DNA of 64,000 nt from Geodermatophilus obscurus (lineage in GTDB: Bacteria > Actinomycetota > Actinomycetes > Mycobacteriales > Geodermatophilaceae), in assembly GCF_900115395.1 (NCBI RefSeq), contig NZ_FOWE01000006.1, positions 248,001 through 312,000 on the forward strand, read 5' to 3'. A program made the position numbers and the translations under genes. This document shows, piece after piece, positions 1,490 through 50,824 of this stretch. The notes beneath the pieces were generated by a model that saw only the letters and a list, made by a program, of their open reading frames with translations, had not been told where the DNA came from and did no database searches. Every line of letters starts with the position of its first letter. Position 1 is the first letter of the stretch.

Positions 1490-2569
1490 TCACCTCGCCG
1501 GTGAGGCGCCCACGAAGCGGGCGACCACCGCGCGGACCTCCTCCGGGGACAGCGCCATCGTGGCGTCGCCCACGGCGAGCTCCACCCGCTGCACCGCCGG
1601 GTCGCCGGTGGGCATCGCGTCGGCCCAGGTCCACAGCCCCTCCTCGGCGCAGGAGCGCGCGGCGGCGCGGAACGCCTCCGGCGTCGTCTCGAGGAGCAGG
1701 TGCAGCATCGGCGTCTGCGGCGGGTCGGGGACCACGCGCACGCCCGGGACGTCGCGCAGGAGGCCGGCGAGGTCGCGGGCCCGCTCCAGGTAGGCCGGCA
1801 TCAGCGGCAGCCGGCGGCGCAGGCAGGTCAGCGCCGACGCCGCGCCCGGCCACAGGCCGAAGAGCGTGCCGCCGAGCCGGTGACGCCACTCGCGCACCTC
1901 GGCGACGGCGTCGGCCGGTCCGGCCAGGCAGCACCCGGCCAGCGCGCCGATGCCCTTGTAGAAGCTGACGTAGACGGTGTCGAACGGCGCGGCGACCTCG
2001 GCCGGCGTCATGTCGTACCCGGCCGCGGCCTCCCACAGCCGGGCGCCGTCGAGGTGGGCCACCGAGTGCACGTCGTGTGCCCACGCCGTCTGCTCGACGA
2101 CGTCGTCCCACGGCGGGAGCTGCCCGCCGAGGTCGCGCTGCGGCAGCTCCACCACCAGCGCGGCCGGCGACTCGGCGACGGCGTCGAGGTCGGCGCGCAC
2201 CAGCATCCGGTTGCGGTCGCCGACCGGACGGGGCACCAGGCCGTGCAGCCGCTCCAGCGCCCCGCCCTCGTGCCGGAACAGGTGGCAGTCGGGGTGGGCG
2301 ACGACGGTGCGCCGCAGCGTGCGCCCGGCGTGCACCCGCAGGGCCGACTGCTGGGCCATCGTGCCGCTGGGCAGGTACACCGCCGCCGGCTTGTCCAGCA
2401 GCGCGACGACCTCGGCCTCCAGCTCGGCGACGACGCCGCCGGCGCCGTACCGGTCGACCGCCGTGTCGGGCGGGACGGTGGCGAGCAGGTCGGCGGCACG
2501 CACGGGGCCGTGTGCGGACAGGGCGCGGTCGCAGGACGACCGCAGTGCCTCGAGGTCGGGGTCGCTCAC
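1490..2569 (-). CDS. Low-specificity L-threonine aldolase-like PLP enzyme
   Basis: A fold-type I PLP enzyme of the beta-eliminating lyase / threonine aldolase family, predicted to cleave beta-hydroxy amino acids (for example L-threonine to glycine and acetaldehyde). Recognisable elements are YGAGGVVAELE near the N-terminus, YLPSGTMAQQ, the cofactor region HLDGARLWE (about residues 172-180) and SFYKGIGAL with the PLP lysine at about K205. I chose GTG at 2569 (MSDPDLEAL). An upstream in-frame ATG at 2620 would place the palindromic repeat array inside the coding sequence and adds only a low-quality Arg-rich extension. Length of 359 aa is normal for the family. Confidence 0.85.
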   Translation of the reverse strand: MSDPDLEALRSSCDRALSAHGPVRAADLLATVPPDTAVDRYGAGGVVAELEAEVVALLDKPAAVYLPSGTMAQQSALRVHAGRTLRRTVVAHPDCHLFRHEGGALERLHGLVPRPVGDRNRMLVRADLDAVAESPAALVVELPQRDLGGQLPPWDDVVEQTAWAHDVHSVAHLDGARLWEAAAGYDMTPAEVAAPFDTVYVSFYKGIGALAGCCLAGPADAVAEVREWRHRLGGTLFGLWPGAASALTCLRRRLPLMPAYLERARDLAGLLRDVPGVRVVPDPPQTPMLHLLLETTPEAFRAAARSCAEEGLWTWADAMPTGDPAVQRVELAVGDATMALSPEEVRAVVARFVGASPAR

Positions 2570-2598: not shown

Positions 2599-2699
2599 CG
2601 AGATCACGCGATCTCGGCACGTCGGCCGCTCCTGCCCGCCGAGATCACGCGATCTCGACACGTCGGGCCGCTCCTGCCCGCCCAGATCACGTGATCTCG
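2599..2699. repeat. Palindrome array A: three GAGATCAC-type palindromes with near-identical spacers
   Basis: Three palindromes lie in tandem between metX and the aldolase-like gene. Copies at 2599-2616 and 2640-2657 are identical: arms CGAGATC / GATCTCG around ACGC. The third, 2682-2699, has a perfect core AGATCACGTGATCT. The two spacers (2617-2639 and 2658-2681) are nearly the same as each other, both carrying CACGTCGG followed by CCGCTCCTGCCCGC. The real repeat unit is therefore palindrome plus spacer, about 41-42 bp. The same palindrome recurs at 50172-50235. The stretch 2570-2725 contains nothing else recognisable. Confidence 0.9.
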
Positions 2700-2725: not shown

Positions 2726-3847
2726 TCAGGTGCCCAGCAGCTCCCGCACCAGCGCGCCGACGGCGTCGGCTTCGATGAGGAAGCCGTCGTGACCGTACGG
2801 CGAGGACAGCACGCGCAGCGGCACGCCGAGGCCGTCGGCCACCCGCTGCTGCAGCGCCGGCGGGTAGAGCCGGTCGCTGTCGACCCCGGCGACGACGGCG
2901 CGTGCGGTCACCCGGGCCAGCGCCGCCTCCACCCCGCCGCGGCCGCGGCCGACGTCCCAGGTGTTCATCGCCTCGGTGAGCACCACGTAGCTGCCGGCGT
3001 CGAACCGCAGCGCCAGCTTGTCGGCGTGGTGCTCGAGGTAGGAGGCGACGGCGAACCGGCCGTCGTCCTGCACCGTCGTGCCGAACCGCTCCTCGAGCTC
3101 CAGCGCGCTGCGGTAGGTGAGGTGCGCGATCCGCCGGGCGACGCCGAGCCCCGCGACCGGGCCGGGCCCGGGCAGGTGGTCGCCGCCGGCCCAGGCGGGG
3201 TCGGCGCGGATCGCGGCCTGCTGGGTGGTCTGGGTGCCGAGCTGGTCGGCGGTGACCGCGGCGCCGGAGGCCAGGAAGAACAGCCCGGCGACCCGGTCCG
3301 GCAGCGCGACCGCCCACTCCAGCGCCCGCATGCCGCCCATCGACCCGCCGACGACGGCGGCCCACCGGCGGACGCCGAGCGCGTCGGCCAGCGCGGCCTC
3401 GACCAGCACCTGGTCGTTGACGGTCACCTCGGGGAAGCGCGAGCCCCACGGGTGACCGTCGGGCGCCGTCGACGACGGCCCGGTGGTGCCCTGGCACCCG
3501 CCGAGGACGTTCGCGCAGACGACGAAGAACCGGTCGGTGTCCAGCGCCGCGCCCGGGCCCACCAGCGGTGCCCACCAGCCCGGCGTCGCGTGCCCCGGGC
3601 CCGCGGGGCCGGTGACGTGGCTGTCGCCGGTGAGGGCGTGCTCGACCAGCACCGCGTTGCCGCCGTCGGGCGCGAGCGTCCCCCACGTCTCGTAGGCGAC
3701 CCGGACGCCCGGCAGCACCCCGCCGCGCTCGAGGCGGACCGGTCCGTCCAGGTCCAGGAACAGCCGGTCCCCGGCGGGGTCGCCGTCGCGCCACCCGCCC
3801 GTGCGCGGCGGGGTGCGGGACCGGGGCAGGTCCCGCACCCCCGTCAT
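2726..3847 (-). CDS. metX: Homoserine O-acetyltransferase
   Basis: Transfers the acetyl group of acetyl-CoA to L-homoserine, the committed step of methionine synthesis in this pathway. It has the alpha/beta-hydrolase fold of the MetX family: VAYETWGTL, the FVVCANVLGGCQGTTGP loop, nucleophile elbow VVGGSMGGM with Ser at about residue 169, and the late Asp (GVDSDRLYPP) and His (YGHDGFLIE) of the triad. ATG at 3847 gives 373 residues, normal for MetX; longer in-frame extensions run back into metY. It starts 1 bp after the metY stop, so the two genes are translationally coupled and share the SAM riboswitch upstream of metY. Confidence 0.95.
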   Translation of the reverse strand: MTGVRDLPRSRTPPRTGGWRDGDPAGDRLFLDLDGPVRLERGGVLPGVRVAYETWGTLAPDGGNAVLVEHALTGDSHVTGPAGPGHATPGWWAPLVGPGAALDTDRFFVVCANVLGGCQGTTGPSSTAPDGHPWGSRFPEVTVNDQVLVEAALADALGVRRWAAVVGGSMGGMRALEWAVALPDRVAGLFFLASGAAVTADQLGTQTTQQAAIRADPAWAGGDHLPGPGPVAGLGVARRIAHLTYRSALELEERFGTTVQDDGRFAVASYLEHHADKLALRFDAGSYVVLTEAMNTWDVGRGRGGVEAALARVTARAVVAGVDSDRLYPPALQQRVADGLGVPLRVLSSPYGHDGFLIEADAVGALVRELLGT

Positions 3848-5141: not shown

Positions 5142-5220
5142 GGCGCCGTCTCCTCTCGTACCGGAGGACCTGCGGCGCACAGGTGCTCCGTCCTTGCCGC
5201 GCGGCGGGCGCCGCACGGCC

Positions 5221-5303
5221 GGCTCTTCCCCTGGGAGCACCTCAGACGGAGGAAGAGGTTGCCGGGCAGCAAGCCAGGTGCTTGTCGCTGCCTCTCGTGA
5301 GCC
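5221..5303 (-). promoter_or_regulatory. SAM riboswitch aptamer (SAM-IV / SAM-I-IV type) upstream of metY
   Basis: Reading the minus strand from 5303, a P1 helix GGCTC closes with GAGCC at 5225-5221. Between them are the conserved SAM-I-clan elements: GAGAGGCAGCGACAAG, GGCTTGCTGCCCGGCAACC, CTCCG and GGTGCTCCCAGGGGAAGA. The short P1 and GGTGCxCC..GGGGA style resemble the actinobacterial SAM-IV class found before metY. Downstream (5190-5162) is a hairpin CGGAG-ACCTG / CAGGT-CTCCG ending shortly before the RBS. The downstream segment GGAGCACCT (5189-5181) is also complementary to AGGTGCTCC inside the aptamer (5242-5234), giving two mutually exclusive structures. The aptamer call is strong; the switching mechanism is inferred. 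Confidence 0.9.
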
Positions 5304-47035: not shown

Positions 47036-47202
47036 GTCACCGACCTGGGTGACACCCCGAGGACGCCGTCGAGCCGGTCGCCCTCCTGGGGCGCCGGGCC
47101 GGGGACCCATCGCAGTCCTGGGGTGCAGCGCGTGTCCGCACGCGCCGGGCGAGTCCACGCCCGAACCCGTCAGCTAACCCGGTAGGCGGCCTGGGAAGAG
47201 GA
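47036..47202 (+). promoter_or_regulatory. c-di-AMP riboswitch (ydaO-yuaA motif)
   Basis: The leader of the NlpC/P60 gene contains the ydaO hallmarks in order: GGGTGACACCCCG, GGGCCGGGGACCCA, GCAGTCCTGGGGTG, then GCCCGAACCCGTCAGCTAA followed by CCCGGTAGGCGGC and a purine-rich GGGAAGAGGAG. This combination is highly characteristic of actinobacterial ydaO riboswitches upstream of Rpf/RipA-like cell-wall hydrolases. Binding of c-di-AMP typically turns expression off. Borders are approximate. Confidence 0.92.
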
Positions 47203-47212
47203 GAACCGCCAC

Positions 47213-48831: not shown

Positions 48832-50169
48832 ATGCCCGAGTCCGTGCTGCCCGCCACCGCCCGCGCCCTGCTGGCCCGCACCGCGCGCGTGCAGCGCGAC
48901 GGCCGCGCGCCGAGCCTGGTGGCCGGGGTCGTCCGGGACGGGGGGCTCGCCTGGTCGGCCGGCCGCGGGGACGTCGCCGGGCCGCACACCGACGTCCAGT
49001 ACCGGCTGGGCTCGATCAGCAAGACGGTCACCGCCGTCGCGGTCCTGCGGCTGCGCGACGAGGGCCGGCTGCACCTCGACGACCCGCTGGACCGGCACGT
49101 CCCCGGCACGCCGCTGGGCGACCGGTCGGTCGGGCAGCTGCTGTCGCACCTGGCCGGCGCGTCCGCGGAGAGCCCCGGTGGCTGGTGGGAGCGGGTGCCC
49201 GGGGGGTCGCTGGAGGACCTGGCGCTGGGCGGCGAGGACGTCGTCCTCGGCGAGGCCCGGCGGTTCCACTACTCCAACCTGGGCTTCGGCCTGCTCGGTG
49301 AGCTGGTGGCGCGGCTGCGCGGGCGGTCGTGGGACGACGTCGTCACCGGCGAGGTGCTGCTCCCGCTCGGCATGACCCGCACGACGCCGCGCCCCTCCGG
49401 CCGCGCTGCGCAGGGGTACGCCGTCCACCCGTGGGCCGACGTCGTCCTGGCCGAGCCCGAGCACCACGCCGGGGTGATGGCCGCGGCCGGCCAGCTGTGG
49501 GCGACGCTGGCCGACCTGGCCCGCTTCGCGGCGTTCCTGCTCGGGGACACCGGCGACGTGCTGGACCCCGGCACGCTCGAGGAGATGGCGGTGCCGGCCG
49601 GCGTCGACCCGTCGTCGCCCGCCTGGTCGGCCTACGGGCTGGGGCTGCAGGTGCTGCGGGTCGACGGCCGGACCCTGACCGGGCACGGCGGCTCGATGCC
49701 GGGCTTCCTCGCCGGGGTCCTCGTCGACCGCGAGGAGGGCACCGGTGGGGTGTCGCTGGCCAACACCACCAGCGGGCTGGACCCCGGGCTGGTGCCGGGC
49801 CTGCTGGCCGACCTGCGCGCCGCCGAGCCCCGGGTGGCCGAGCCCTGGCGCCCCTCGCCGCCGCCGGTGCCGCTGGACCAGCTGGGCGTCTGGTACTGGG
49901 GCCCGGCGCCGTCCCTCCTGCGCGCGGTCGCCGGCGGCCTGCTCCACCTGGGGCCGCTGCCGGGACGCCCCGGGCGGGCGAGCCGGTTCCGCGGCCGCGA
50001 CGACGGCACGTGGGTCGGCCTGGACGGCTACTACGCCGGCGAGGTCCTGCGGATCGCGCCCGACCACCTCGACCTGGGCACGTTCGTCCTCACCCGCGAG
50101 CCCTACGACCCCGACGCCCCCGTCCCCGGCGGCGTCGACGAGCGCGGCTGGACCTCGCCGGACAGCTGA
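48832..50169 (+). CDS. Serine hydrolase, class C beta-lactamase / DD-peptidase fold
   Basis: 445 residues from ATG 48832. Active-site motifs of the beta-lactamase family are SISK (Ser 61, Lys 64), YSN at 147-149 and HGG at 285-287. There is no signal peptide, so this is likely a cytoplasmic esterase or peptidase rather than a resistance enzyme. The C-terminal 110 residues (after PPPVPLDQLGVWYWGP) form an extra domain with RFRGRDDGTWVGLDGYYAGEVL, often seen in such hydrolases. It ends just before palindrome array C. Confidence 0.9.
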   Translation: MPESVLPATARALLARTARVQRDGRAPSLVAGVVRDGGLAWSAGRGDVAGPHTDVQYRLGSISKTVTAVAVLRLRDEGRLHLDDPLDRHVPGTPLGDRSVGQLLSHLAGASAESPGGWWERVPGGSLEDLALGGEDVVLGEARRFHYSNLGFGLLGELVARLRGRSWDDVVTGEVLLPLGMTRTTPRPSGRAAQGYAVHPWADVVLAEPEHHAGVMAAAGQLWATLADLARFAAFLLGDTGDVLDPGTLEEMAVPAGVDPSSPAWSAYGLGLQVLRVDGRTLTGHGGSMPGFLAGVLVDREEGTGGVSLANTTSGLDPGLVPGLLADLRAAEPRVAEPWRPSPPPVPLDQLGVWYWGPAPSLLRAVAGGLLHLGPLPGRPGRASRFRGRDDGTWVGLDGYYAGEVLRIAPDHLDLGTFVLTREPYDPDAPVPGGVDERGWTSPDS

Positions 50170-50171
50170 TC

Positions 50172-50235
50172 CGCCGAGATCACGTGATCTCGGCGCGGCG
50201 GGCCGCCCGTACGGTCGAGATCGCGTGATCTCGAC
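50172..50235. repeat. Palindrome array C: two GAGATCAC-type palindromes
   Basis: A 24-bp perfect palindrome at 50172-50195 (CGCCGAGATCAC and complement) and a second at 50214-50235 with 9-bp arms GTCGAGATC / GATCTCGAC around GCGT. The second core is the exact reverse complement of the copies in array A (2599-2657). The 18-bp spacer contains GGGCCGC as in array A. It lies between convergent genes (50169 and 50253), where it could also act as a bidirectional terminator. Confidence 0.9.
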
Positions 50236-50252: not shown

Positions 50253-50771
50253 TCAGGGGCGGTCGAAGGCGTCCATCGTGGTCTTGACGACGGCGCCGTA
50301 GGCCAGGTGCGGCACGACGTCGCTGACCCAGTCGGTGGCCGACCACGTGCGCGGGTCGGTGATGCCGAGCACCGTCATGGGGCCGTTGGAGGCGACCAGC
50401 ACGCCGAGCGTCGTGAGCAGCGTGCCCACCACCGGCTGCGACCGGAAGCCCGACGCCCGGGCCAGCCCGACCAGCGCGCCGACGCCGAGGCCCGCGACCA
50501 GCCCCGTGAGCGGTCCGAGACCCTGCACGCGGTTCTGCCGGTGCTCCTCGTCGCCCGGGATCGGCACGTGCGCCTTCCGCGCCAGCGCCTCCACCGTCTG
50601 CTCGGGCGTGGAGCTGGTGCCGCGCCCGCGGACGGTCATGTCCAGGTAGGTGACGGCGTTGAGCGCGGTGGTGCCGGCCGCGCCCGCCGCCGCCCCCCGC
50701 ACCGCCCAGCCGAGCGTGCTGATGCCCCGCTTGCCCTTCCCGAACGTCCCCACCGGGGTGCGCCTGGCCAT
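50253..50771 (-). CDS. Membrane-associated protein, function unknown
   Basis: 172 residues from ATG 50771 (MARRTPVGTFGKGKRG); GTG 50798 would add nine residues. A basic N-terminus is followed by RGAAAGAAGTTALNAVTYLDMTVRGRG, a polar stretch TPEQTVEALARKAHVPIPGDEEHRQNRVQGLGPL, then hydrophobic GLVAGLGVGALVGLARA and TLLTTLGVLVASNGPM. This suggests two to three membrane helices. I recognise no family. It is divergent from the DUF3253 gene with about 50 bp between starts. Confidence 0.7.
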   Translation of the reverse strand: MARRTPVGTFGKGKRGISTLGWAVRGAAAGAAGTTALNAVTYLDMTVRGRGTSSTPEQTVEALARKAHVPIPGDEEHRQNRVQGLGPLTGLVAGLGVGALVGLARASGFRSQPVVGTLLTTLGVLVASNGPMTVLGITDPRTWSATDWVSDVVPHLAYGAVVKTTMDAFDRP

Positions 50772-50824
50772 GGCGACCGCGGTACCCGTCGCGTCCACCA
50801 GCGCAAACGGCGCACCATGGTCGG

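Follow-up and report, generated by a model that had tools for sequence, protein, structure and literature searches.

The palindrome array at positions 2599 to 2699 of the window, a stretch of 64,000 nucleotides of the Geodermatophilus obscurus genome, is probably one of 22 dispersed REPIN-like doublets that serve a nuclease cassette elsewhere in the same genome as its cognate recognition element. The repeat is termed F1 in the following, and its two occurrences in the window are termed site A and site B.

Palindrome arrays in the window

Site A had been described in a sequence-only reading as three palindromes with two nearly identical spacers of 23-24 bp, located between two genes of the same strand and recurring near 50172-50235. 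All of this was borne out. Two palindromes are exact matches to CGAGATC-N4-GATCTCG (CGAGATCACGCGATCTCG, at 2599..2616 and 2640..2657), and the third, CCAGATCACGTGATCTCG (2682..2699), deviates by one mismatch. The first spacer (2617..2639) has 23 bp and yields a unit length of 41; the second (2658..2681) is near-identical to it and has 24 bp. The triplet has the appearance of a unit of 41-42 bp duplicated in tandem. Both neighbours are encoded on the minus strand, a beta-eliminating lyase gene (1490..2569, PF01212), presumably threonine-aldolase-like, and a gene of the alpha/beta hydrolase fold (2726..3847, PF00561), which we take to be metX. Site B is an exact doublet of CGAGATCACGTGATCTCG (50175..50192) and CGAGATCGCGTGATCTCG (50216..50233) around a spacer of 23 bp (50193..50215; unit length 41). 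It fills a gap between convergent genes, a plus-strand gene of the beta-lactamase fold (48832..50169, PF00144), whose stop codon lies 6 bp upstream of the first 16-mer of the doublet, and a minus-strand gene for a protein of 181 aa (50253..50798) that matched no Pfam family.

Five matches to the palindrome with up to two mismatches were present in the window, compared with a mean of 0.30 in shuffled sequences, and none of 100 shuffles reached five. None of the Rfam families covered site A or site B, and the 18-mer CGAGATCACGTGATCTCG was absent from the open-licence PMC literature. The window also holds a SAM-IV riboswitch (5185-5302, minus strand, 84.2 bits) close to the gene that precedes the metX-like one and a c-di-AMP (ydaO/yuaA) riboswitch (47069-47205, plus strand, 62.3 bits).

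Copies across the genome

The whole genome (4.96 Mb, 22 contigs) contains 46 exact copies of GAGATC-N4-GATCTC in 22 clusters, and the centre of every copy reads NCGN. The reversed control pattern had no copy in the same genome, which refutes a copy number at chance level. When partners with one mismatch were included, 27 adjacent pairs of palindromes were counted, 11 spaced at 41 bp and 16 at 42 bp. Further triplets with near-identical spacers occur in the genome and look like tandem duplications; apart from these, the spacers differ between doublets. The two ends of a spacer are complementary to each other at 79 of 108 positions, as compared to a mean of 58.0 and a maximum of 77 in 2000 shuffles. 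Complementarity was at chance level from loop to loop within a doublet (77 of 108, shuffle mean 76.9) and between the flanks of a single palindrome (117 of 196, mean 116.5). Each of four doublets folded in silico, site B among them, was predicted to form one long hairpin.

According to gene calls made with our own crude codon model, nine clusters are in convergent, twelve in co-directional and one in divergent setting; the gaps of at least 60 bp in the window comprise 6 convergent, 15 co-directional and 11 divergent ones. At 14 of the 22 clusters the left-hand gene lies on the plus strand and its stop codon is at most 30 bp away from the element. The family is dispersed and mostly intergenic, with one co-directional cluster inside a called gene and one overlapping a gene edge, and it is structured and partly amplified in tandem, with long-hairpin doublets of which some are extended to triplets. 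On these points the initial description of the array proved accurate.

A putative nuclease gene between matched flanks

About 66 kb beyond the window, a gene located between purC and purS is bracketed by two F1 doublets (C20:377882 and 378871) that lie 1 kb from each other. Its DUF559 domain was detected with 36.5 bits (36.5 and 39.9 bits are reported against a Pfam cut-off of 20.6), and the N-terminal half of the protein matches AbiEi models. For the AlphaFold model of the Geodermatophilus aquaeductus orthologue (pLDDT 94.2), the best solved fold neighbour was the catalytic domain of the homing endonuclease I-Bth0305I (probability 1.00, E 0.02-0.04, TM by target 0.70-0.73), with no structure match reaching E 0.001; the nearest solved structure by sequence was 3hrl, an endonuclease-like protein. 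None of 75 sequences varies at E194, D226 or D252, which indicates that the nuclease has been kept, and H243 is nearly invariant. We take these four positions to be the active-site residues of a DUF559/Vsr-like nuclease. Judged from sequence and model, the gene product is a putative DNA-cutting Vsr-like nuclease with an AbiEi-like winged helix.

The cassette has the order doublet, TGTGGAC box, gene, stop codon, doublet. Of 52 loci, 47 have the box in the stretch from the upstream doublet to the gene; among control genes it precedes 3 of 149. It mostly lies about 47-114 bp before the matched gene start and is a candidate promoter or operator.

Classical REPINs, which are moved by a RAYT (a Y1/HUH transposase), have the same doublet-hairpin form (PMC3116915). 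The gene flanked by the repeats in this genome is, however, a DUF559 gene, and a search at Pfam sensitivity for the RAYT-type domain Y1_Tnp was positive in none of 26 genus genomes and in 5 of 14 control genomes. A RAYT partner was rejected on this result, and we attribute next to no probability to an origin of the doublets as classical REPINs.

An orthologue of the gene at the purS locus was present in 18 of the 25 genus genomes in which purC was found. All 18 have one repeat family on both sides by eye, weakly so in G006 and G008. The family labels F1-F7 were assigned from the flank sequence with the loci known: F1 in G000, G002, G004 and G010; F2 (GAGATCGSCGNTCTC) in G001, G018, G022 and G023; F3 (GAGATCTGCACAGTGG and its inverse) in G003, G006, G009 and G024; F4 in G012, G016 and G021; F5 in G008 and G017; and F7 in G007.

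The similarity between upstream and downstream flank was scored for 76 loci out of the best 80 of 281; L207, L257, L259 and L263 were dropped as short or cut. The threshold of 17 was the highest score among 73 control genes, none of which exceeds it, and was then checked on 134 other genes of the source genome, of which three exceed it. Scores above 17 were obtained for 50 of 52 Geodermatophilaceae loci, one of them from a MAG named only Frankiales, with L213 and L230 as the failures, and for 3 of 24 other actinobacterial loci. Under a stricter control with flanks taken from other loci, 20 of 76 loci exceed the 99th percentile, a low number because that control holds loci of the same repeat family. 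The own downstream flank was the best of all in 21 of the 52 loci and within the top tenth in 42.

Six of the 14 distant DUF559 paralogs tested in the genus, a set without L101, also scored above 17 (L094, L097, L098 and L100 in the source genome, L176 in G019 and L182 in G024). Matched flanks with scores of 24 to 35.5 were seen outside the Geodermatophilaceae in L285-L287 (plasmids of Arthrobacter and Tsukamurella), L243 (Virgisporangium) and L253 (Arthrobacter echini). Such genes outside the family hint at a wider range. All four plasmid DUF559 genes examined, out of 15 records, scored above 17 (24.5-32) in a comparison made without control genes from those genomes; the Azospirillum repeat among them resembles a T-tailed terminator, and the gene start of another was guessed. 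Viral contigs, examined for a possible carriage by phages, yielded 120 relatives; in the 80 listed, the match mostly covers the nuclease domain alone, with 26-45% identity.

Repeat family, gene clade and copy number

The repeat family fits the tree of the DUF559 proteins better than that of purC. The six family labels can be placed on the tree of the 18 proteins with five changes, the fewest possible, a value that none of 200 shuffles reached. For purC from the same genomes, with a tree of weak resolution (4 of 15 inner branches starred), ten changes are required, and 22 of 200 shuffles needed no more than that. A profile search in 26 genomes retrieved 23 subfamily genes (at least 425 bits; next 180), five of them away from purS. 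By eye, each of the five is flanked upstream and downstream by the repeat family of its clade (in G013 the downstream copy lies inside the extended frame; this gene was scored as L220), and with them in the tree the labels still need five changes. The branch supports are 97/87 for F1, 98/96 for F3, 100/100 for F4, 100/99 for F5 and 99/98 for F7; F2 is not one clade, since F5 nests within it.

The genome G003 has F3 at purS, yet it contains 36 copies of F2. Two of its F2 clusters are 1 kb apart, so a second DUF559 gene was sought between them and then found; its product is nearest to the F2-type protein of G001 (78%). Five genomes have two cassettes each, and in 9 of the 10 comparisons a cassette's own flank was a better match than that of its mate.

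Each repeat family is commonest in genomes with its cognate gene, with exceptions. For F1, genomes that contain the cognate gene have 14, 26, 46 and 47 copies and the remaining ones 0-6 (26 genomes, p 0.00029), and the same comparison in 26 genomes gave p 0.0018 for F2 and p 0.0036 for F3; these p values treat genomes as independent. F2 was counted as forward hits and F3 as the sum of both strands. G012 was counted as F3-cognate although its variant misses the F3 pattern, and G014 as F2-cognate despite the internal stop of its gene. The tests cover F1, F2 and F3, as F4 and F5 yielded too few pattern matches. A pair of sister genomes points in the same direction: G010 with the F1 gene has 14 F1 and no F2 copies, and G018 with the F2 gene has 2 F1 and 21 F2 copies. 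An extra cognate gene was predicted beforehand in six genomes and was found in one, G014, as the copy with the internal stop. By profile search the predicted gene was absent from G017 (34 F2), G016 (9 F3), G025 (10 F3) and G019 (6 F1), and the extra gene of G013 (14 F2) was of the F4 type, against the prediction. In these genomes the repeats may have persisted after the loss of their gene, or a related gene may read them.

Single doublets could also be footprints of a cassette that is mobile as a whole and loses its gene by recombination between the flanking repeats. The flanks are indeed long direct copies, cassettes of one clade occur at different loci, and at the purS locus G015 (F5) and G025 (F3) have a single doublet and no gene where relatives have doublet, gene and doublet. 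As a general origin of the dispersed copies this scenario appears unlikely, given that no DUF559 remnant was found near other F1 clusters, the cassette itself being the only hit in the 39 stretches examined, and that a genome has at most two subfamily genes versus up to 22 clusters.

Co-variation with the N-terminal half

Co-variation between repeat and protein was analysed in the 50 loci with matched flanks; the family labels F1-F7 were not used. The similarity of the upstream repeats correlated with that of residues 1-170 (r 0.48, reached in 0 of 999 permutations) and less with that of the C-terminal part (r 0.18, 2 of 999); the partial correlations were 0.46 for the N-terminal and -0.03 for the C-terminal half. 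For the downstream repeat, the partial correlation was 0.56 with the N-terminal half given the C-terminal half (0 of 499 permutations) and -0.08 in the converse case (456 of 499). By segment, the correlation with the downstream repeat was 0.50 for residues 1-60 and fell to 0.13 for the nuclease. Since the downstream repeat adjoins the end of the gene that codes for the nuclease and yet tracks the N-terminal half, physical linkage does not explain the pattern. The higher conservation of the nuclease half may weaken its co-variation signal.

A co-variation of this kind needs binding only and would also be expected from a regulatory function, in which an AbiEi-like autorepressor uses the flanking doublets as operators or terminators, the dispersed doublets form a regulon or are spare terminators, and the nuclease acts elsewhere, for example on foreign DNA. 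AbiE is a type IV toxin-antitoxin system whose AbiEi proteins bind inverted repeats, and antitoxins of the AbiEi type repress their own operons (PMC7319586). The match to AbiEi over the N-terminal half, the positions at 3' ends and the strong hairpins all agree with such a function. Autorepression, however, needs no doublet downstream of the stop codon, the dispersed copies are mostly located at 3' ends with only 1 of 22 clusters in a divergent gap, and the invariant acidic residues argue for a nuclease that has been kept. A purely regulatory function is hence improbable in our view. Both regulation and footprints of lost cassettes may be true together with the preferred reading of the doublets as recognition element of the nuclease.

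What the comparisons show for this preferred reading are associations between sequences, from which direct binding, cleavage and a nuclease-driven spread of the doublets are inferred. The N-terminal winged-helix half would bind the palindromes, and the spacing of 41 or 42 bp, about four helical turns, would bring both members of a doublet to the same helical face. The nuclease would nick or cut at or near the palindromes, and repair or gene conversion would keep the copies alike and spread doublets to other intergenic sites. The doublets would land mostly at 3' gene ends, where the harm is presumably least.

The repeat in relatives

An F1 copy was present in 22 of 118 genomes searched, the source genome included. 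Within the genus the counts were 46 in the source genome, 47 in G004, 26 in G002, 14 in G010, 6 in G019, 4 in G023, 2 in both G009 and G018 and 1 each in G013, G016 and G022. The range over the 25 genus relatives is thus 0 to 47, and 15 of them have no F1 copy; an identical conservation in all relatives, which the sequence-only reading had named as the observation that would speak against dispersal, was not encountered.

The orthologues of site A in G004, G002 and G010 hold F1 doublets as does the source genome, those in G001 and G023 hold decayed remnants, and no doublet was found at those in G006, G007 and G011. The orthologue in G018 (L041, downstream of metX) is a hybrid doublet of one F2-type and one F1-type palindrome; the cassette of this genome is F2, and the hybrid is perhaps a conversion in progress. 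Site B has F1 in the source genome only, and many relatives carry other palindromes there. The orthologous gaps (L064-L089, downstream of the 181-aa gene) contain several other inverted-repeat families, among them a repeat around CACTTCCGCGGAAGTG in G004, G007, G010 and G014 and a long GGCATAGGAAGC hairpin in G001 with a near-identical one in G011. These may be further families with partner genes of their own.

Of 20 regions around F1 copies of relatives, nine align across a copy of the source genome, which indicates that many F1 copies are old; of the other eleven, two align only elsewhere in the stretches compared and nine remained unaligned. No clean new insertion together with its empty site was observed in the comparisons with relatives. 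The dispersal of F1 is real, yet many of its sites are old. The original attribution of the array to REP/BIME-like or miniature mobile elements is therefore upheld for the doublet-hairpin form and not for a recent burst of a mobile element, which did not show in a family with many old copies.

Ordinary bidirectional terminators that share a sequence and are unrelated to the DUF559 gene would likewise be found at 3' ends and in convergent gaps and would form strong hairpins. Many actinobacterial terminators have no T run, so termination may take place at site A even though no T-tailed terminator was detected between 2400 and 2900 of the window. The missing T run at site A nevertheless counts against this explanation, as do the arms of site A, which are kept across relatives while spacers and loops change, and the families themselves, which follow the clade of the nuclease gene and its N-terminal half. 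We regard it as very improbable that the doublets are terminators of this ordinary kind.

Comparison with known systems

In the REPIN-RAYT system, REP doublets occur with a REP-associated tyrosine transposase (PMC3116915). F1 and its relatives share with this system the short palindromes, the inverted hairpin doublets, the intergenic dispersal and some tandem clusters, as well as families that match the repeats beside one single-copy gene and a co-variation of gene and repeat. Unlike the REPIN-RAYT system, the gene associated with F1 combines the AbiEi-like winged helix with the Vsr-like DUF559 nuclease in a genus where no Y1 transposase was detected. A tally of the bases beside the palindromes showed no GTAG tag, and F1 copies number tens and not the hundreds given for REPINs in the source cited.

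CGTC-tagged REPs are short palindromes, mostly dimers at 3' gene ends, for which the authors report no dedicated transposase; they are defined by an unpaired CGTC, TGTC or CCTC tag at one end, a stem of 8-9 bp with A-T as first and second pair, and a CCA tail (PMC3733652). The main text of that paper mentions neither "Geodermatophil" nor "Actinobacteria". F1 resembles these elements in being mostly dimeric and at 3' gene ends, and CGTC or CGCC often precedes its palindromes. The bases before the F1 16-mer are mostly [CG]G[TC]C, but they pair with the other side. The arm CGAGATC starts with G-C pairs, and there is no CCA tail.

The likeness to AbiE is confined to the N-terminal half of the DUF559 protein, which differs from AbiE in being fused to a nuclease; no AbiEii toxin gene lies beside the DUF559 gene, whose neighbours are purC and purS. 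DNA damage in cells can result from a DUF559 protein, as Caulobacter VsrA demonstrates (PMC12907096). The predicted catalytic fold links the protein to I-Bth0305I of the Vsr-like/DUF559 group. We know of no report in which a dispersed family of palindromes surrounds I-Bth0305I or VsrA or is paired with either of them. An earlier description of DUF559-linked palindromes or of such repeats in Geodermatophil genomes was not found among the open-licence PMC papers listed, judged by title or abstract start, and no paper there joined REPINs and RAYTs to Actinobacteria or REP elements to a Vsr endonuclease; an earlier description may exist elsewhere.

Taken more broadly, and as a tentative proposal that we deem possible rather than probable, the doublets may represent a second, RAYT-independent class of REPIN-like elements. 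In this class a winged-helix-guided Vsr-like nuclease would drive the copying of its own doublets, the repeat families would be paired with gene clades, and the cassettes would be exchanged between species as units. Related nucleases would perhaps be the enzyme of other REP classes, for example of the CGTC REPs.

In the papers considered here, the enzyme associated with REP elements is the RAYT (PMC3116915). A palindrome family that borders a nuclease gene and co-varies with it would establish that REP-like repeats have arisen together with another enzyme, too. The coupling would suggest a role for a part of the DUF559 family, and it would make the question testable of what moves or keeps REPs that have no transposase. 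It would also provide many natural pairs of protein and site from which to learn how winged helices of the AbiEi type read DNA.
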